From Paucisalibacillus globulus (GTDB taxonomy: Bacteria > Bacillota > Bacilli > Bacillales > Amphibacillaceae), in contig NZ_LT855384.1 of the NCBI RefSeq assembly GCF_900184735.1, positions 106,939 through 170,938 of the forward strand: DNA of 64,000 nt, written 5' to 3'. The notes beneath the pieces were generated by a model that saw nothing but the letters and a program-made list of their open reading frames with translations, had not been told where the DNA came from and did not search any database. A program made the position numbers and the translations under genes. Of this stretch, positions 4,283 to 57,530 are shown piece after piece (the first letter of the stretch is position 1; every line of letters begins with the position of its first letter).

Positions 4283-4312
4283 GCGCAGATCATAGGATCT
4301 GCGCATTTTTTT
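4283..4312 (+). terminator. Strong intrinsic terminator after trxB
   Basis: A perfect 9-bp stem (GCGCAGATC / GATCTGCGC) with loop ATAG is followed by seven T residues after one A. It closes the trxB transcript before the repeat array that starts at 4351. Confidence 0.93.
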
Positions 4313-4350
4313 GGTTATTTATTGTGTTGATTTGAAATTGGAGGGCTTTT

Positions 4351-4792
4351 GGTTAGAAGGATATTGAGGAAGGTCGTAAGGTGACGGATGTTGGGCACAA
4401 GGAAAGTGCAGCCGGTCGCAAGCTGATGGATGTTGGTCACAAGGAAAGCGCGCCCGGTCGCAAGCTGATGGATGTTGGTCACAAGGAAAGCGCAGCCGGT
4501 CGCAAGCTGATGGAACTTGGTCACAAGGAAAGCGCAGCCGGTCGCAAGCTGATGGATGTTGGTCACAAGGAAGGTTCACCCGGTCGTAAGCTGATGGAAC
4601 TTGGTCACAAGGAAAGCACAGCCGGTCGCAAGCTGATGGATGTTGGTCACAAGGAAAGTACACACGGTCACAAGGAATGAGCATATGGTCACAAGAAATT
4701 CAATACTGGGCACAAGGCTGTGAAATCCCAGTCTCAAGAATGAAGCGCTCAGTCCCAAGCTAACAAATCCAAGTCACATATTCTCTAATAAC
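4351..4792. repeat. Minisatellite: 21 units of exactly 21 nt
   Basis: From 4351 to 4792 the sequence divides into 21-nt units without one gap. Most units open with GGTC(A/G)CAAG. In the middle (4372-4680) two unit types alternate (GGTCACAAGGAAAG... and GGTCGCAAGCTGATG...), giving a 42-bp higher-order repeat of about seven copies. To the right the units have diverged but keep the register, with starts at 4687, 4708, 4729, 4750 and 4771. Because 21 is a multiple of three, open frames appear on both strands, but none has a convincing ribosome site or family. The array occupies the gap where B. subtilis has yvcI (Nudix hydrolase). Confidence 0.95.
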
Positions 4793-7870: not shown

Positions 7871-7982
7871 ATTTAATAAGTATTATTAATGGAGCGCAAT
7901 AGAAAGGAATGCGTCTATCGTTAATACTTTTTTTAAAATGAGTAATGTTACCGCTTACTTTTTGGGGGAGGATGAAGAGAAC

Positions 7983-8237
7983 ATGGTTGAGAGAGTTGTT
8001 ACAGTTGAGCTAGAGACAGGATTGCAAGCTAGGCCTGCCGCACAATTTGTTCAGGAAGCCAACCGCTATGCTGCGCATTTGTTTTTAGAAAAAGAAGGTA
8101 AACGAGTAAATGCAAAAAGTATTATGGGACTAATGAGCTTAGCCATTACTACTGGTGAGTCTATCAAACTAATAGCTGATGGATCTGATGAGGATATTGC
8201 AATGAATCACTTAATCTCTTTTGTTAGCAGAAAATAA
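7983..8237 (+). CDS. crh: Catabolite repression HPr-like protein Crh
   Basis: HPr paralogue of 84 residues. Position 15 is Gln (GLQARPA) where true HPr has the phosphorylatable His, and Ser46 is present in AKSIMGLMS. This is the signature of Crh, which HPr kinase phosphorylates at Ser46 and which then acts as a CcpA co-repressor. It cannot carry PTS phosphate. The ATG at 7983 gives the family length. An in-frame ATG at 7938 would add 15 residues that the family does not have. It follows whiA as in B. subtilis. Confidence 0.95.
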   Translation: MVERVVTVELETGLQARPAAQFVQEANRYAAHLFLEKEGKRVNAKSIMGLMSLAITTGESIKLIADGSDEDIAMNHLISFVSRK

Positions 8238-9140: not shown

Positions 9141-9180
9141 AGCCTATGTGTCAATTAATTTAAGAACAATTATATACTAT

Positions 9181-9256
9181 GCGCCCATAGCTCAGTTGGA
9201 TAGAGCACTGGTTTCCGGTACCAGGTTTGTCGGGGGTTCGAATCCCTCTGGGCGCG
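9181..9256 (+). tRNA. tRNA-Arg (anticodon CCG)
   Basis: Cloverleaf read by hand: acceptor stem GCGCCCA / TGGGCGC, D stem GCTC/GAGC, anticodon stem CTGGT/ACCAG with loop TTCCGGT giving anticodon CCG, T stem GGGGG/CCCTC with TTCGAAT loop, discriminator G. CCA is not encoded. The tRNA is intact because the prophage att core supplies its 3' two thirds. A tRNA-Arg next to clpP matches the trnQ-Arg locus of B. subtilis as I recall it. Confidence 0.95.
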
Positions 9257-9258
9257 TC
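9209..9258 (+). other. attL core (50 bp)
   Basis: Runs from the anticodon stem of tRNA-Arg to two bases past its end and is identical to 48130-48179. Sequence diverges immediately on both sides of the two copies, which fixes the length of the shared core. Confidence 0.95.
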
Positions 9259-9272
9259 CATCAAGTCAATAG

Positions 9273-14064: not shown

Positions 14065-14292
14065 ATGAATCAAACTATGATTTATGACTACTTGGGATTC
14101 GATACTGATCCAATGTATAAGAAGTTGAAACAACTCAAAAAAGGGCAGCAGATTAGCCTAGGTAGTCTTACTGTTTTATTTAATAATTCAGGCCTATATG
14201 AGGTCATTACAGAGGATTTACATGATGGATTCATCAATATTAAGGAATGCTACAAGTTTCTATTGGATGTAGCAGGTGATAAACAATGCTAG
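14065..14292 (+). CDS. Hypothetical early phage protein
   Basis: A 75-residue protein with AGGGAGG before its ATG and a 7-nt overlap with the next gene. No motif is recognised. Confidence 0.65.
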   Translation: MNQTMIYDYLGFDTDPMYKKLKQLKKGQQISLGSLTVLFNNSGLYEVITEDLHDGFINIKECYKFLLDVAGDKQC

Positions 14293-14465
14293 TACCATTT
14301 CGAGTCTTGCTACCTAAACGAATATTTGAAGATGCAAAGACCGAACAAGAGGTACAAGCTCTTACTAAAGAGTATATGCAACGTTATCCGCATTATTTCT
14401 TAATTTATATAGAAAATGGTTTTGCGATTTGTGAACGAAATAATAAAAATCCAAATGGAGGTTAA
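14286..14465 (+). CDS. Hypothetical small phage protein (59 residues)
   Basis: Its ATG overlaps the end of the previous gene, which indicates translational coupling. The middle (EEVQALTKEYMQRYPHYFLIYIENG, with Gln before the first Glu pair) reads as helix then strands. The family is unknown. Confidence 0.55.
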   Translation: MLVPFRVLLPKRIFEDAKTEQEVQALTKEYMQRYPHYFLIYIENGFAICERNNKNPNGG

Positions 14466-14471
14466 TTTAGA

Positions 14472-15107
14472 ATGCAAAATAATATTGAGTATTTACATGC
14501 AGATAAATATGGACAAGCAATGAAGATTGCTAGGAAGTTCACAGGTGATGGAAAAACGCGTCCTATACTATCTTTTGTTTTTCATGACAAGGACGGATCA
14601 ATTGTTGCTACTGATTCTCATAGGGCTATCCGCATTAAAAACATTCACGGATTTAAAGAGGATTATTTAATTCATCCAAACACGATTGATTTTGCAAAAG
14701 CTGATTACCCAGATACAAAGAAGGTGTTTGGAGAGAAAGGAAATATTTCCATCACATTGAATAAAGAACAAATAAAGATATGGTTACAAATGCATAAATC
14801 AATTAATCAGTTAATTGAAAAAGTTTATGGAAGATATACTCATGTAACATTGGCGTTCGATGAAAAAATCACTTTCAAAATTAAGAATGAAAACGAAATT
14901 GAATTTACGCTTCCTTACTCAGATTTCGATAAACCGGATACTAATAAGGTTACGTACGACCCAAAATACATGCGAGATGCATTGGAAGCTCATACAACCA
15001 TGGGTTCTGAAATAGTTAATATCATCATTAATGGTCAAATGAGACCAATGATAATTGAAAATGGCTTGGATGTCGAAGCTGTTGTATTACCGGTGAGAAC
15101 TTATTAG
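14472..15107 (+). CDS. Sliding-clamp (DnaN beta)-like phage protein
   Basis: Protein of 211 residues, about half the length of the host clamp. The stretch PILSFVFHDKDGSIVATDSHRA (residues 32-53) resembles the beta-clamp core pattern with ATDGHRLA. The C terminus (NGQMRPMIIEN ... AVVLPVRTY) resembles the clamp end, where the pattern closes with PVR or PMR. It lies directly before the replisome organiser and helicase loader. It may be a phage processivity factor or a decoy for host clamp partners. The assignment rests on motif resemblance only. Confidence 0.65.
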   Translation: MQNNIEYLHADKYGQAMKIARKFTGDGKTRPILSFVFHDKDGSIVATDSHRAIRIKNIHGFKEDYLIHPNTIDFAKADYPDTKKVFGEKGNISITLNKEQIKIWLQMHKSINQLIEKVYGRYTHVTLAFDEKITFKIKNENEIEFTLPYSDFDKPDTNKVTYDPKYMRDALEAHTTMGSEIVNIIINGQMRPMIIENGLDVEAVVLPVRTY

Positions 15108-18323: not shown

Positions 18324-18361
18324 GACAAAATATGCGGTAAAAATTTGAGAGGAGAATGAAA

Positions 18362-18850
18362 ATGCCAAATTGGGCAGAGGGAGTACTAAAAGTTAGAGGT
18401 ACTAGGCAGGACATTAGAAAGTTTTTAGTTGAGGGGTTGGAACCATTAAATCCAAGAGCAGGAATATCAATGCTTAGGGGTGGGGAAATCGAACAACTTA
18501 AATCTGAAATCCAAGAAGATGACTGGGACTTAACAATGAAAGCTCCACATGGTTTCTATATTAAAGGCACCAGAAGAGCATTTATTGAAAGTGATATCTA
18601 TTGGGAATTTGACGATAAGCATACCGAGGTATTAACAATTGAAGACTTTAAGCAAGCATGGGCGGTAATTCCTGAAAACTTTGTGGAAATTTCTAAAAAG
18701 TTCAACTTGGATATAAAGATATATACCTTCGAAAAGGGTATGGAGTTCAACCAAGACGTTGAGATTCATAAGGGTGAAATTGTTAAAAATAACGAAATAA
18801 CATTTGATGATTATGAATGGGAATGTTTAATGCCACACTTAGGTGGTTAA
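18362..18850 (+). CDS. YubB-like ferredoxin-fold protein
   Basis: A 162-residue protein that starts MPNWAEGVLKVRG, as proteins of the YubB/DUF1281 ferredoxin-like family do (typically MPNWC...N.L.V.G). A second repeat-like part follows after residue 90. These proteins are common on phages and plasmids and their function is unknown. The second of two nearby ATGs is chosen because GAGGAG lies 6-7 nt upstream of it. Confidence 0.7.
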   Translation: MPNWAEGVLKVRGTRQDIRKFLVEGLEPLNPRAGISMLRGGEIEQLKSEIQEDDWDLTMKAPHGFYIKGTRRAFIESDIYWEFDDKHTEVLTIEDFKQAWAVIPENFVEISKKFNLDIKIYTFEKGMEFNQDVEIHKGEIVKNNEITFDDYEWECLMPHLGG

Positions 18851-25202: not shown

Positions 25203-26873
25203 ATGCTCCATAACAAGTACGTTGAAGATTATATAAAAAAATGGAAATGTGGCAAGATTTTACTTAATAAAAAGAGAATACTCTTAATCGCATTGATTGA
25301 AAAACATATACTACCTCGAGATGATCTTTATTATTTTGATGATGAACAAATTGAAAACTATATAGAGTTTAGTGAGACCTGGTACTTCGAACTAGATGAA
25401 TGGGAAACCTTTATAGCCCCATTCATTTTTTTGTTTCAAAAAGAAGATGATGAACCTGTATTTGATGAGTTTGTTATAAATATGGGTCGTGGTGGTGGGA
25501 AGAATGGTTTTATTTCCACTCTTGCTAACTATTTTATTAGTCCTTTACATGGGATAGATTATTATGATGTATCTATTGTTGCTAACTCTGAAAAACAAGC
25601 TAAACGCAGTTTCCAAGAATGTTACCGGGTGATAAATAAAAAAGGTAATGAAGATTTGCTTGAAGAATTTGAAGCTTATAAAAGCAGCATAACTGGCATA
25701 GATACACAGTCCGTATTTGAATATAAAACAAGTAATGCTGGTTCCCAAGATGGTGGTCGTGAAGGTGCTGTTATTTATGATGAATATCACGAAATGGAAA
25801 CAACCGAAATTGTAGATGTTTTCTCTGGCGGTCTAGGTAAGGTTGATTGTGGCCGTCAATTCTTTATAGGTACCAAAGGTTTTGTCAGAGATGGTTACTT
25901 TGACATTAAGTATCGTGAATGTGAGGACATCTTAAACGGAGTAACAGAATTTAAAGGCGTATTTCCTTATATTTGTGAATTGGATGCAATTGAGGAAATG
26001 GACGATCCTGCAAATTGGGCAAAAGCAAATCCAGCATTACAAGAGCCATTGAATAAACGCGGTAAGCGACTCTTTACAAAAGTTATGAAACAGTATAAAA
26101 AATTGGCAACAGAACCCTCTGGTCGCGCAGCGTTTGTAACAAAGCGTATGAACTTCTTAGAAGAAGACATGGAGCATTCTGTTGCGAGTTGGGAAGAAAT
26201 AAAGGCTACTAACAGACCTTTTTTTAAACTCGATACAAAGCCAATCGGCTCCCTAGATTTTGGTAGCGTAAGAGATTTCGCATCCTGCGGATTATTATTT
26301 AGAAAAGGTGATGAGTACGCCTTTAAAACGTTTAGTTTTGCAATCAAGCATTTTTGTGATGTGCATTACGGGTACTCTAACTCCGCCAATAATTCAGGAA
26401 CAGAAAAGAAAGCACCGATAAAGGAATGGGAAAAGCAAGGTTTAATGAAGGTTATTGATGAACCATCATTAAATCCAATGCATATTGTTAATTGGTTTAT
26501 CGATGCGCGTGAACAATATGGAGTTGAGAAAATAATAGCTGATAATTACAAATTGGATATATTGAGACCTTTACTTGAGGAACAAGGTTTTGAAGTGGAA
26601 AGTATTAGGCGTCCAACCAGTATTCATCCTTTATTAGCCCCTCGAGTAGAAGATGGATTTGCAAATCACAAGTTTATTTTTGGGGACAATCCATTAATGC
26701 GCTGGTATACAAATAATGTTTATGTTAAGGAAACAAGTGCTGGAAAGATATTTGAGAAAAAAGAAGAAGTAAAACGTAAAACAGATGGATTCCAGGCTTT
26801 TATCCATGCACTATACCGAGCTGGTGAATTAGACGAGGGTGAGGAATTTATCGTGGATGATATTGACTTTTAG
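25203..26873 (+). CDS. terL: Large terminase subunit
   Basis: Packaging motor and nuclease of 556 residues. ATPase Walker A appears as GRGGGKNG (about residues 96-103) and Walker B as VIYDEYHE (about 188-195). The nuclease part starts at GSLDFGSVRDF (about 348) with further Asp in IIADN and near the C terminus. It is of the HK97/cos type (Terminase_1 family). It starts 3 nt after the small subunit. Confidence 0.95.
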   Translation: MLHNKYVEDYIKKWKCGKILLNKKRILLIALIEKHILPRDDLYYFDDEQIENYIEFSETWYFELDEWETFIAPFIFLFQKEDDEPVFDEFVINMGRGGGKNGFISTLANYFISPLHGIDYYDVSIVANSEKQAKRSFQECYRVINKKGNEDLLEEFEAYKSSITGIDTQSVFEYKTSNAGSQDGGREGAVIYDEYHEMETTEIVDVFSGGLGKVDCGRQFFIGTKGFVRDGYFDIKYRECEDILNGVTEFKGVFPYICELDAIEEMDDPANWAKANPALQEPLNKRGKRLFTKVMKQYKKLATEPSGRAAFVTKRMNFLEEDMEHSVASWEEIKATNRPFFKLDTKPIGSLDFGSVRDFASCGLLFRKGDEYAFKTFSFAIKHFCDVHYGYSNSANNSGTEKKAPIKEWEKQGLMKVIDEPSLNPMHIVNWFIDAREQYGVEKIIADNYKLDILRPLLEEQGFEVESIRRPTSIHPLLAPRVEDGFANHKFIFGDNPLMRWYTNNVYVKETSAGKIFEKKEEVKRKTDGFQAFIHALYRAGELDEGEEFIVDDIDF

Positions 26874-26878
26874 GGGAG

Positions 26879-28021
26879 GTGAGGAACATAGGACTATTTG
26901 ATGTTTTCAAAAAAAATAGCGAATTGGAATTAATGCTTGATTTGGATTTACTCGAAGGTGTTTCCGATAGAATACAGATGAAGCAGATGGCTATTCAAAC
27001 CTGTATAAATTTAATAGCAAAAACTATTAGTATGTCTGAATTTCGGGTGAAAAAAAGGAAGGAATATATTAAAAACGAAACTTATTATCGTTTAAATGTA
27101 AAGCCAAATTTAAACCAAGCCGCAGCAACATTTTGGGAGCAAGTCATCTACAAATACGTTTATGATAATGAATGTTTAATTATCATTACTGATACGCAAG
27201 ATCTATTGGTAGCTGACTCATTCACCAAAAAGGAATATGCGGTCTATGGCGATGTTTTTACAGACGTTGTAGTTAAAGGTCATGAGTTTAGGCGCTCATT
27301 TAAACGTGATGAGGTCTTCTATATTGAATTTAACAATAAAAATCTCACCCCAATTATGGATGGCCTATATGCCGATTATGGTGAACTATTTGGAAGAACA
27401 ATAAACGCTCATAAGCGAAAAAGCCAAATACGTGGGACGGTTGATATTGAAGGACTATCTGGTACCACTGATGAGAAAAGAGAAAAAATCCAAAAGTTTG
27501 TCGATAAAGTATACAAGGCTTTTACGGATAAAGACATTGCGGTTGTGCCGCAACAAAAAGGGTTTAAATACCAGGAACATAGCAAATATCAACAATCGTT
27601 GTCTGTAGATGAAGTGGACAAAGTGGCGGATGGTTTTCTGAAAAAAGTTGCTAGGGCATTGAATATTCCCCCGGCATTAGTTCTTGGTGAAATGGCAGAT
27701 GTTGAAAAACCAACAAGAAACTTTATGCTTTTTTGCATTGATCCCATTGTGAAGAAAATTAAAGACGAGTTTACAGGAAAGATGTTTACTAGAACTGAAT
27801 TCTTTGAAGGAGAGCAAATTGATATCCGTAGACCTTCTTACCGTGATATTTTCGACCTTGCAGCTGCAGTTGATAAGCTACGAGCAGGTGGAATGTACAA
27901 CGGTAATGAATTACGAGACAAGTTAGGGGATGAACCAGTTGATGATCCAATTCTTGAGAGATATTATATCACGAAAAACTACACTGAGGATTCACTAGAA
28001 GGGGGTGGTACAGATGAATGA
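26879..28021 (+). CDS. Portal protein
   Basis: HK97-type portal of 380 residues, recognisable by position and by the pattern of a long helical core (CINLIAKTISMSEFRV) and the C-terminal AAAVDKLRAGGMYNGNELRD. Twelve copies form the DNA gate of the head. The start is unusual: the only canonical codon before the conserved IGLFDVFKK is a GTG at 26879 that lies inside the ribosome site. The ATA at 26888 stands at proper distance. Confidence 0.9.
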   Translation: MRNIGLFDVFKKNSELELMLDLDLLEGVSDRIQMKQMAIQTCINLIAKTISMSEFRVKKRKEYIKNETYYRLNVKPNLNQAAATFWEQVIYKYVYDNECLIIITDTQDLLVADSFTKKEYAVYGDVFTDVVVKGHEFRRSFKRDEVFYIEFNNKNLTPIMDGLYADYGELFGRTINAHKRKSQIRGTVDIEGLSGTTDEKREKIQKFVDKVYKAFTDKDIAVVPQQKGFKYQEHSKYQQSLSVDEVDKVADGFLKKVARALNIPPALVLGEMADVEKPTRNFMLFCIDPIVKKIKDEFTGKMFTRTEFFEGEQIDIRRPSYRDIFDLAAAVDKLRAGGMYNGNELRDKLGDEPVDDPILERYYITKNYTEDSLEGGGTDE

Positions 28022-28217
28022 TCAGATTGAAAACAATTTCAGGTATCATGCTCCGAAACCTGGACAAGTAGAGTTGTATACAGAAATCAGAGAGCAAACG
28101 AAACAATTAGCTTTGTATATAGATATACATTGTCCCAATTCAAGAGAAAAGTCATTAGCAATAACAAAGCTAGAAGAAGCAGTAATGTGGGCTAATGCTT
28201 CTATTGCTAGGAATTAA
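28014..28217 (+). CDS. Acb2/Tad1-like hairpin protein (predicted signal-nucleotide sponge)
   Basis: A 67-residue protein made of two helices. The pattern FRYHAP ... Q ... Y ... IR ... CPNSREKSLA ... LEEAVMWANASIAR is, from memory, the Acb2/Tad1 hairpin domain. Acb2 sequesters cyclic di- and trinucleotides of CBASS, and Tad1 sequesters gcADPR made by Thoeris. Tyr11 and Arg26 fall where I recall ligand contacts (Tyr11, Lys26) of PaMx33 Acb2. The gene overlaps the portal by 8 nt (ATG at 28014) and is co-translated with the head genes, so the protein would appear late in infection or act in the lysogen at low level. Confidence 0.8.
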   Translation: MNDQIENNFRYHAPKPGQVELYTEIREQTKQLALYIDIHCPNSREKSLAITKLEEAVMWANASIARN

Positions 28218-28232
28218 AGGGGGTGAATATAC

Positions 28233-28949
28233 GTGAAGCATAAAATCAAAGGCGATATTATTAGTTGGAATTCTAGTATTTGGGATTTTAATTACAAAAT
28301 GAAATCAATAAAAGAGGATGAAGATATCGAACTTGCTATTAATTCTTATGGCGGAGATATGTTTTTAGGGATTGATATTGGCAATACATTAAAAGAACAT
28401 AAAGGATTTGTTACTGTAGTAATTACTGGAATTGCAGCAAGCGCAGCGGGAGTAATAGCTATGGGGGCGAATAAAATAAAAATGTATTCCAATACCCAAT
28501 TCATGCTACATGAACCTTGGACTATCGCTAGAGGTAATTCTAAGCAATTGAGAAAAGTCGCAGATGATTTAGAAAAACATAATCACTCTGCACTAAAGTC
28601 CTATACTCATAGAGTAGATGAAGATACGGTCAAGAAATTAATGGAGAAGGAAAGTTACTTAACTGCAGAGGAAGCTCTTCAATATGGTTTTATTGATGAG
28701 ATTATTGATGGTGAACCTGAAAAAGTTGAGTCACAGTTGTTCCAGAATAAAGCGATGGAGTTTAATAATAAAATTATTTCTTCTCCACCAGCTGCAGCAT
28801 CGTCAATTGAATCGTTAGATGCAGATATGATTAAGTCAATGTTTGAAGAAATGGAAAAAAAGTTAATAAACAAGCTTAAACCAAAAGAGCCTGAACAAGA
28901 ACCTGTTCCAAAGCAGAGTCTATCAGCGCTCTTTTTAAATTTAAAATAG
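28233..28949 (+). CDS. ClpP-like prohead protease
   Basis: A 238-residue serine protease of the ClpP/crotonase fold. The family motif SYGGDMFLG (about residues 37-45), catalytic Ser in GIAASAAGV and His in MLHEPW are visible. A C-terminal Pro/Glu-rich tail follows. It matures the head by processing capsid or scaffold. GTG start after AAGGGGGTG. It lies between portal and capsid as in HK97-like phages. Confidence 0.93.
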   Translation: MKHKIKGDIISWNSSIWDFNYKMKSIKEDEDIELAINSYGGDMFLGIDIGNTLKEHKGFVTVVITGIAASAAGVIAMGANKIKMYSNTQFMLHEPWTIARGNSKQLRKVADDLEKHNHSALKSYTHRVDEDTVKKLMEKESYLTAEEALQYGFIDEIIDGEPEKVESQLFQNKAMEFNNKIISSPPAAASSIESLDADMIKSMFEEMEKKLINKLKPKEPEQEPVPKQSLSALFLNLK

Positions 28950-28961
28950 AGGAGAATGAAA

Positions 28962-30113
28962 ATGCCAATTAAATTTACAAATTTTGAAGAACAAAAATTA
29001 GCTTTTGCTAAAGCAACACAGGAGGGTACTCCAGAGGAACAAACAGAAGCATTAAACGGTATGCTTAATGCACTTGCTGCAGATGTACAAAAGGACATTC
29101 TAAACGAAGTTAATACACGCATGGCTGATAATAGTGTTCTTCAGTCTCGTGGTCAAAACGTTTTAACAAGTGAAGAGCACAAGTTCTTTAATGCGGTAGT
29201 TGAAGATGGCGGTTTTAAAGAAACTGAAACTCTACCGAAAACAACTCAAGAGAGAATTTTTGACGAGTTAGTCAAGGAGCACCCATTATTAAATCATCTA
29301 GGTTTACAAAACCTTGGTGCTGTAACAGAATTTATTTTCTCTGATCCATCAGGTGCAGCAATTTGGGGTCCATTATTTGGGGATATTAAAGGTCAATTAA
29401 ATGCTGCATTTAGAAAAGAATCTATCACTCAACTTAAATTAACAGCGTTTATTCCATTAGCAAATGACATGTTAAAACTAGGTCCAGCTTGGGTAGAGCG
29501 TTACGTTAGAACTATTATTAAAGAGGCAATGGCTGTTGGACTTGAAAAAGGTTTTGTTGCTGGAACAGGCAAAGAAGAACCTATTGGATTATTGAAAAAC
29601 CCTGCGGGAAGTGTTGTTGATGGAGTTTATCCTGATAAAGCATCTGCTGGAACACTTACATTTGAGCCAGGGCGCAAGACAATTAATGAACTGCGTGATG
29701 TTATGAAGCTTCTTGCTAAAAAGTTAAAGGGTGATGGAACAACTGACGCAGATGAACCTAAAAAGATTGCTGGGAAAGTGGTTATGGTGACAAACCCATT
29801 TGATACATTTGATGTTCAAGCGAATGCTACAATTCAAAATGCATCTGGAGCTTATGTGACTAACTTACCATTCAACCCAATTCCAACTGAATCAATCTTT
29901 GTACCACAAGGAAAAATCCTATTCTTTGTTAAAGGTGAGTATACAGCCGCACTAGGTGGAAGTGAGCCAGTTAAAAAATACACTGAGACTATGGCTTTAG
30001 AAGACGCTACACTATTTATCCAAAAGCAATATGCTACAGGTAAACCAAAAGATAAATATGCTTCTCAAGTATATGATTTGAATTTAGCACTTGAAGAACC
30101 AGTAGGAGTATAA
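28962..30113 (+). CDS. Major capsid protein (HK97 fold)
   Basis: A 383-residue capsid protein with a helical N-terminal delta domain of about 90 residues (probably removed by the protease) and the HK97 body (residues 105-380, with AGTGKEEPIGLL and the P-domain). The second of two close ATGs is chosen because GAGGAG is 7 nt upstream. It is the most abundant virion protein. Confidence 0.93.
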   Translation: MPIKFTNFEEQKLAFAKATQEGTPEEQTEALNGMLNALAADVQKDILNEVNTRMADNSVLQSRGQNVLTSEEHKFFNAVVEDGGFKETETLPKTTQERIFDELVKEHPLLNHLGLQNLGAVTEFIFSDPSGAAIWGPLFGDIKGQLNAAFRKESITQLKLTAFIPLANDMLKLGPAWVERYVRTIIKEAMAVGLEKGFVAGTGKEEPIGLLKNPAGSVVDGVYPDKASAGTLTFEPGRKTINELRDVMKLLAKKLKGDGTTDADEPKKIAGKVVMVTNPFDTFDVQANATIQNASGAYVTNLPFNPIPTESIFVPQGKILFFVKGEYTAALGGSEPVKKYTETMALEDATLFIQKQYATGKPKDKYASQVYDLNLALEEPVGV

Positions 30114-48129: not shown

Positions 48130-48179
48130 TGGTTTCCGGTACCAGGTTTGTCGGGGGTTCGAATCCCTCTGGGCGCGTC
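48130..48179 (+). other. attR core (50 bp)
   Basis: Identical to 9209-9258. It contains the tRNA-Arg sequence from the anticodon stem onward but lacks the 5' third, so it is not a tRNA gene. Confidence 0.95.
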
Positions 48180-49370: not shown

Positions 49371-49420
49371 TGGATTTCCGGTACCAGGTTTGCCGCGGTT
49401 CAAATTCATCTGGACGCGTC
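49371..49420 (+). other. Decayed third copy of the att core
   Basis: Aligns with the 50-bp core over its whole length at roughly 80 percent identity with one insertion and one deletion. It marks the right end of the older prophage. A short ACCCTA/TAGGGT inverted repeat follows at 49424-49446. Confidence 0.85.
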
Positions 49421-57121: not shown

Positions 57122-57219
57122 GCGTATTAGGGGAACATCTAGGTTGTTATTAGCTTTTAGAGGCAAAATATACGGAGTGTTGACTAATATAATACACTTG
57201 TGGATAGAAATTAAGGATA

Positions 57220-57530
57220 AACCTGAACATGGTCTATTAGAAGTATTCTCATGGACAGATATCGTAGAAAAACATGAACACTGTCTAATAGAAGTGTTCT
57301 CATGGACAGAAATCGTAGAAAAACGTAAACACTGTCTAATAGAAGTGTTCTCATGGACAGAAATCGTAGAAAAACGTAAACACTGTCTAATAGAAGTGTT
57401 CTCATGGACAGAAATCGTAGAAAAACGTAAACACTGTCTAATAGAAGTGTTCTCATGGACAGAAGACGTACAAAAATGTAAACATTGTCTAATAGAAGCA
57501 TACTCCCATGGACAGAACTAGTAGATAAAC
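57220..57530. repeat. Minisatellite: six 51-bp units
   Basis: About six tandem copies of a 51-nt unit. Three central copies are nearly identical and the outer ones are diverged. Each unit contains an inverted repeat (AACACT ... AGTGTT) able to form a small hairpin. As 51 is a multiple of three the array is open in frames on both strands, but no ribosome site or known protein supports translation. It fills the gap between eno and the nucleoside hydrolase gene. The remaining flanks (57122-57219 and 57531-57702) show no gene. Confidence 0.95.

Follow-up and report, generated by a model that had tools for sequence, protein, structure and literature searches.

A dormant virus in the Bacillus-like bacterium Paucisalibacillus globulus carries a tiny gene of a known family among its head-building genes. 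The 67-residue product most probably acts as a stand-alone Acb2-type sponge, a hexamer that would bind the cyclic di- and trinucleotides of CBASS, and its gene would have been inserted into the head module. The protein is one more member of a known family, correctly recognised as such in the original prediction, which had named the Acb2/Tad1 domain from the letters alone. In the proposed mechanism, the protein, predicted to fold into a long helical hairpin preceded by a short helix, would probably assemble into a hexamer, as its solved relatives do, and capture, but not break down, cyclic di- and/or trinucleotides that CBASS-type enzymes produce; judging from the family, the cell-killing effector would stay off while its signal is bound. 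Comparison with empty sites suggests that the gene entered an HK97-type head module between the portal and protease genes, with a ribosome-binding-like site of its own.

A small gene in the head module of a prophage

The window (the whole 64,000-nucleotide stretch of DNA analysed, in which positions are counted from the first letter) holds a prophage that probably extends from ~9.2 to ~48.2 kb, about 38.9 kb in all, and appears to have integrated in a tRNA-Arg gene (9180-9260). Its borders are suggested by an exact 50-bp direct repeat: the core of the probable left attachment site (9209-9258) lies in the 3' part of the tRNA gene and recurs in the probable right attachment site (48130-48179), both on the plus strand. 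A third, partial copy of this att-like repeat is found at 49375-49398 (92% of 24 nt), and the host flanks hold tandem repeats with 42-nt and 51-nt units at 4307-4716 and 57150-57505.

The hairpin gene occupies 28014-28217, running from an ATG at 28014-28016 to a stop codon that ends at 28217, on the same plus strand as its neighbours. Upstream lie the genes for the terminase large subunit (25203-26873; phrog_9, E 1.7e-124) and the portal protein (26879-28021; TIGR01537 portal_HK97, E 4.3e-51; phrog_12, E 2.9e-60); directly 3' is the gene for a ClpP-related head maturation protease (28233-28949; NF045542, E 1.9e-49; phrog_94, E 5.5e-63), followed by that for an HK97-type major capsid protein (28956-30113; TIGR01554, E 8.1e-14; phrog_10, E 4.7e-40). 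The gene begins within the last portal codons, with an 8-nt overlap, and 15 nt separate its end from the protease gene; the 67-residue frame, the quoted motifs, the portal and protease neighbours and the 8-nt overlap are all as first described. Two putative Shine-Dalgarno-like elements can be read on the plus strand, AAGGGGGTGG at 27999-28008, within the 3' end of the portal gene, and AAAGGGGGTG at 28216-28225, ahead of the protease gene. The ATG at 28014 is the likelier start because the alternative, a GTG at 28005, falls inside the first of these elements. In GC content the hairpin gene (0.343) is similar to the portal (0.363) and protease (0.336) genes. An exact 21-nt repeat joins the start region of the major capsid gene (28948-28968) with that of an open reading frame at 18356 (18348-18368).

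Membership in the Acb2/Tad1 hairpin family

That the protein belongs to the Acb2/Tad1 hairpin family is firmly supported. The HMM search gave a match to PF24729 (Acb2_Tad1_hairpin) with an E-value of 7.3e-24 and a score of 84.2 bits, well over the curated cut-off of 27, with residues 11-66 aligned to positions 2-58 of the 58-position profile; it is the single match to this model across the 3.92-Mb host assembly. The protein also matches phrog_1454, a PHROG listed without function, with an E-value of 5.9e-31, while no match came from NCBIfam at E up to 0.01 or from PADLOC at E up to 1. A single-sequence search of solved chains is weak, with "Acb2 homolog 43" best at E 0.21 and two unrelated acyl-CoA hydrolase chains nearly level at E 0.26. 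A profile of 85 relatives reaches the same Acb2 homolog 43 (PDB 9ptq) at E 9.7e-9 over profile positions 9-65, Tad1 chains from E 0.004 over the stretch SRE..A.T..EEA.MW.N, and T4 Vs.4 at E 0.076.

The alignment of these relatives, A1, has 85 rows, to whose other members the 67-residue protein is 42-76% identical. It derives from 120 hairpin reading frames (own locus and window included) by exclusion of locus L038, of rows at least 93% alike in ungapped comparison (86 kept) and then of L033, a short frame. Codon comparison across the family (Nei-Gojobori, own script) points to a protein that is under purifying selection: among the 135 of 3570 pairs with dS of 0.3-1.5, median dN/dS is 0.27 and the maximum 0.62, 3013 pairs being saturated. 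Could the gene nevertheless be a decayed or non-functional passenger? Its sparse distribution, with hairpin matches in 8 of 159 host-family genomes, would fit, but a family dN/dS well below 1, an intact frame, a ribosome-binding-like site of its own and retention of the family's conserved positions make this extremely unlikely.

Predicted fold

An AlphaFold2 (AF2) single-chain model (pLDDT 94.8, pTM 0.76) places helices at residues 3-8, 18-39 and 44-65, that is, a short helix followed by two long antiparallel helices. The two-helix hairpin anticipated for this protein is thus seen in the predicted structure, and the same short-helix-plus-two-long-helices architecture is given for Acb2 in passages of two reviews (PMC12043709, PMC10419184). 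Against solved structures, Foldseek ranks T4 Vs.4 with cGAMP first to third (probability 0.98-1.00, TMq 0.67-0.71, E 0.09-0.29) and Tad1 fourth to sixth; Pseudomonas Acb2 appears at ranks 10 and 14, and unrelated helical chains are mixed in from rank 7. Since none of the 146 matches falls below E 0.001, the best being 0.09, the fold search is support rather than proof; such weak E-values may be expected for a hairpin of 67 residues.

Which half of the Acb2/Tad1 name does the protein deserve? A Tad1-like sponge that takes up gcADPR to counter Thoeris could account for the C-terminal half, which resembles Tad1 over ~20 residues, and 13 of the 159 host-family genomes have a ThsB-type TIR match. 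Yet the 67-residue model is all helix, with no strand where Tad1 has its N-terminal β-sheet domain, no ThsB match is present in the host, and T4 Acb2 outranks Tad1 in Foldseek. The Tad1 assignment was rejected because the β domain is missing from the AF2 model, and a Thoeris-directed role is unlikely. For the same reason the gcADPR pocket of Tad1 would not be expected here, and sequestration of CBASS signals in the Acb2 manner is likelier than gcADPR binding. The joint name given originally therefore holds in its Acb2 part, which better fits a protein of 67 residues built of helices, and not in its Tad1 part, for want of the β-sheet.

The putative ligand pocket

Five positions of A1 are invariant in all 85 rows (P41, R44, E45, A49 and W59), and others nearly so: Tyr11 (81/85), His12 (83/85), Arg26 (84/85), Thr51 (82/85) and Arg66 (82/85). 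For comparison of the pocket, ten Gram-negative Acb2 proteins were added and aligned in three accuracy-oriented MAFFT modes, with residue numbers counted by hand. All three modes set Y11 opposite Y11 of PaP2 and Y8 of T4, R26 opposite K26 of PaP2, T51 opposite T68 of T4, R44 opposite R67 of PaP2 and A65 opposite F82 of T4. The Tyr11 pairing with T4 also comes from the T4 profile alignment, and a further alignment, A5, likewise pairs the tyrosines. A quick ten-sequence MAFFT alignment (A2) placed His12, not Tyr11, opposite the Acb2 tyrosine; His12 was dropped as the counterpart of the stacking tyrosine, the three accuracy-oriented alignments agreeing on Tyr11.

Tyr11 and Lys26 are what we take to be ligand contacts of PaMx33 Acb2, and the tyrosine at 11 and basic residue at 26 to which attention had been drawn at the outset are indeed present, the latter as an arginine. 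The PaP2-type R67, opposite R44, is presumably a trinucleotide contact. For T4 Acb2, one paper calls Y8A binding-deficient and T68M affinity-lowering (PMC12657230), and another describes F82 as stacking on the ligand (PMC12657218). This phenylalanine is not kept: Ala65 stands in its place, as Ala does in all seven aligned PaP2-type proteins, so the stacking Phe82 marks the T4 type and does not characterise Acb2 at large. Position 62 is Arg in 10 of 10 aligned Gram-negative Acb2 proteins, and Ala in the 67-residue protein and in 82 of its 85 aligned relatives. Taken together, the alignments suggest that the dinucleotide site is kept and that the trinucleotide site probably is too, with differences.

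Host defences and c-di-AMP

If the protein counters CBASS, should its host not carry the system? The presence of such a gene in a phage of this host had been taken to predict CBASS or Thoeris in the host group, and this prediction is weak and finds little support. None of the three defence models tried (SMODS, ThsB_TIR and TIR_2) finds a match in the host assembly. Across 159 genomes of the host family, hairpin matches number 8, SMODS 9 and ThsB_TIR 13, with SMODS or ThsB together in 18; such a match occurs in one of the 8 hairpin carriers (G045) and in 17 of the 151 other genomes, so no association of the hairpin gene with CBASS or Thoeris carriage is seen in this set. In favour of the prediction stand findings within the genus, where one genome of 11 has a split SMODS match and three have TIR_2 matches (hairpin 1/11, ThsB 0/11). 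This SMODS CD-NTase match (G004, contig C10, 89279-91182) is in two parts ~1.4 kb apart and possibly represents an interrupted gene. The absent matches in the host do not refute the proposed function because a lysogen need not carry the defence that its phage meets elsewhere.

The host assembly does have one match to DAC, the c-di-AMP synthase. Might the protein instead be a sponge for c-di-AMP that, late in infection, upsets potassium or cell-wall homeostasis in the host and so aids lysis? The DAC match, next to none for the three defence models, lends itself to this idea, as do the binding of cAA by an Acb2, reported in a passage of a review (PMC12043709), and the few relatives that adjoin holin or endolysin genes. 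It is nonetheless very unlikely: according to a passage of PMC11722364, Acb4 sponges from phages of Gram-positive hosts avoid c-di-AMP, and those from phages of Gram-negative hosts do not. The same Acb4 precedent (PMC11722364) is the ground for another reading, in which the protein would stand for a distinct Acb2 lineage (phrog_1454) whose pocket has been reshaped to take CBASS signals and exclude c-di-AMP, which its hosts make; we regard this as possible but rather doubtful. In any case, members of 67 residues offer a compact system for studying how a cyclic-nucleotide sponge acts in cells filled with c-di-AMP.

Probable insertion into the head module and the surroundings of relatives

How did a gene of this kind come to lie between portal and protease? 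Portal and protease searches yielded ten related head modules, six of them IMG/VR loci (L137-L142) and four from annotated phages (L143-L146); a full-sensitivity profile search found no hairpin gene in any of the ten (best E outside the window 1.4). In L137, L140 and L142 the start codon of the protease gene shares bases with the portal stop codon, as GTGA or ATGA, and in the four annotated phages the two genes overlap by 4, 38, 4 and 44 nt. In L138 and L139, identical to each other across the part of the junction shown, the portal and protease matches are 74 nt apart. The corresponding interval in the window measures 211 nt and contains the hairpin gene. Because the ten related modules do without it, the gene is best read as a lineage-specific insertion at the portal/protease junction, its loss from the other modules being less likely. 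Production together with the late head genes is presumed from the insertion in the head module; the late transcription to which the gene had been tied is therefore plausible, if putative, for this phage and no rule for the family. The apparent insertion shows how a counter-defence gene can drop into a late structural operon.

The position between portal and protease could also mean that a sponge look-alike acts in head assembly with the portal or the ClpP-like protease, and a look at relatives gives this idea something to draw on: some adjoin portal, head morphogenesis, minor head, protease or scaffold genes, and in mycobacteriophage Eureka the gene comes after a ClpP-like protease gene, in a stretch with no annotated head gene. 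But ten related head modules lack the hairpin gene, and other relatives are located elsewhere, beside replication, tail, holin or endolysin genes, with no fixed partner seen; on these two grounds a role in head assembly is highly improbable. An inserted Acb2-type sponge is the reading that we retain.

The neighbourhood set behind this comparison comprises 119 sources, namely the window, the gene's own locus and 117 further loci, all fetched by, and all matching, the hairpin profile. With profiles derived from the head genes of the window, a portal gene turns up in just two of these sources, the window and the own locus, whereas 5 sources yield a protease, 6 a capsid and 8 a terminase; more distant head genes would be missed because the flanks extend 5-8 kb at most and some contigs are shorter. 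A PHROG scan took the nearest same-strand genes of at least 80 residues up to 1.5 kb away in 96 non-redundant loci of the 117, which gave 93 of 94 genes on the upstream side and 86 of 92 on the downstream side. Among the 25 commonest of 135 matched families upstream are portal, head morphogenesis, head protease, minor head, terminase, holin, DNA-binding and transcriptional-regulator families; among the 25 commonest of 179 downstream are tape measure, scaffold, terminase, endolysin, peptidase and minor head families; within these best 25 on each side, no family occurs in more than 6 genes. Single phages vary as widely: the hairpin gene adjoins replication genes in Heath, has a sigma factor gene and a HicAB pair nearby in Hayley, lies left of the terminase genes in Cheetobro and, in cyanophage S-2L, is a reading frame with no annotation of its own (MW334946, 35211-35405) among tail genes that overlaps the start of S2L_48. 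Around the acb2 genes of PaP2 and T4, the stretches viewed carry no head-gene annotation. Placement in a head operon is not a family rule.

The relatives also carry features of their own. In Paenibacillus larvae phages, hairpin genes (KT361655, 42050-42253; MH460826, 35106-35321; others) are labelled "phosphomannomutase," evidently a mislabel. Several predicted reading frames have a cysteine-rich, zinc-ribbon-like N-terminal extension before the hairpin (L020, 7923-8195; L015, 14257-14565; L078, 4899-5204; L075, 4818-5198; L093, 4929-5198). Locus L015 has two hairpin genes ~6 kb apart (7980-8204 and 14257-14565), as does genome G343, at a similar spacing.

With the protein as query, tblastn yields 379 phage records at an E-value limit of 0.01 and 446 once the limit is raised to 1, with named hosts that include Mycobacterium, Gordonia, Paenibacillus, Microbacterium, Streptomyces, Bacillus, Arthrobacter, Lactococcus, Curtobacterium, Brevibacillus and a few others, so that the matches named in the output are mostly phages of Gram-positive bacteria. 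Cyanophage S-2L, a Faecalibacterium phage, a crAss-like phage at E 0.1 and six plasmid records match as well. T4 Acb2 matches 1213 records and PaP2 Acb2 242; their named host groups, beyond which there are 24 and 12 further groups, respectively, are gammaproteobacterial except for one Rhizobium phage (E 7e-3) in the T4 list. Among 37 genome loci with relatives of the 67-residue protein, no host is named as alpha-, beta- or gammaproteobacterial; the hosts include MAGs of Desulfo-, Geobacter- and Acidobacteria type, one from the Bacteroidales and one named only "bacterium." The scan behind these loci was seeded with exact peptide patterns taken from the 67-residue protein, which favours near relatives. 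In the class as a whole, the A1 profile finds a match in 13 of 398 genomes. For phrog_1454, a likely function can be put forward, that of an Acb2-type family in phages of Gram-positive and other bacteria.

Comparison with known anti-defence proteins

Acb2, Tad1 and Acb2-type annotations in Mycobacterium and Microbacterium phages are already in print. By tblastn, the protein matches gp101 of Eureka (Kostyavirus), gp26 of NoodlelyBoi and gp61 of Yotsuba, the last labelled a cyclic-oligonucleotide sequestering protein in its record annotation; identity is 41%, 39% and 28%, respectively, and their genes occupy other genome positions. We take Eureka to belong to cluster E, as does Xandras. Passages on Xandras gp101 and BigBubba gp102 (PMC11953737) and on Statler gp57 (PMC13348362) name these as CBASS antagonists or cyclic-oligonucleotide sequestering proteins. 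Among the matches listed from the open-licence literature, no paper deals with this Acb2-type subfamily in Bacillaceae phages, and none names "Acb2 homolog 43."

Tad1 of a Clostridium botulinum prophage (PDB 7uav) shares the second-helix stretch with the 67-residue protein but has an N-terminal β-sheet domain, which the latter lacks. Acb2 homolog 43, the best solved relative by sequence profile, is of similar size (76 residues) and, in the alignment shown, lacks the YH.P and full MWANASIAR stretches of the 67-residue protein. The Acb2 proteins proper, T4 Vs.4 and gp26 of Pseudomonas phage PaP2 (PDB 7uq2, 8h2j, 8h2x), belong to the same Pfam family, which scores over its cut-off in both phage genomes. 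At 14-23% identity, the 67-residue protein differs from them in lacking their insert between the helices, in having Arg for Lys at 26, Ala65 for the T4 Phe82 and Ala for Arg at 62, and in its SREK turn and R66; like them, it has a short N-terminal helix followed by two long helices, and the pocket tyrosine and basic residue align.
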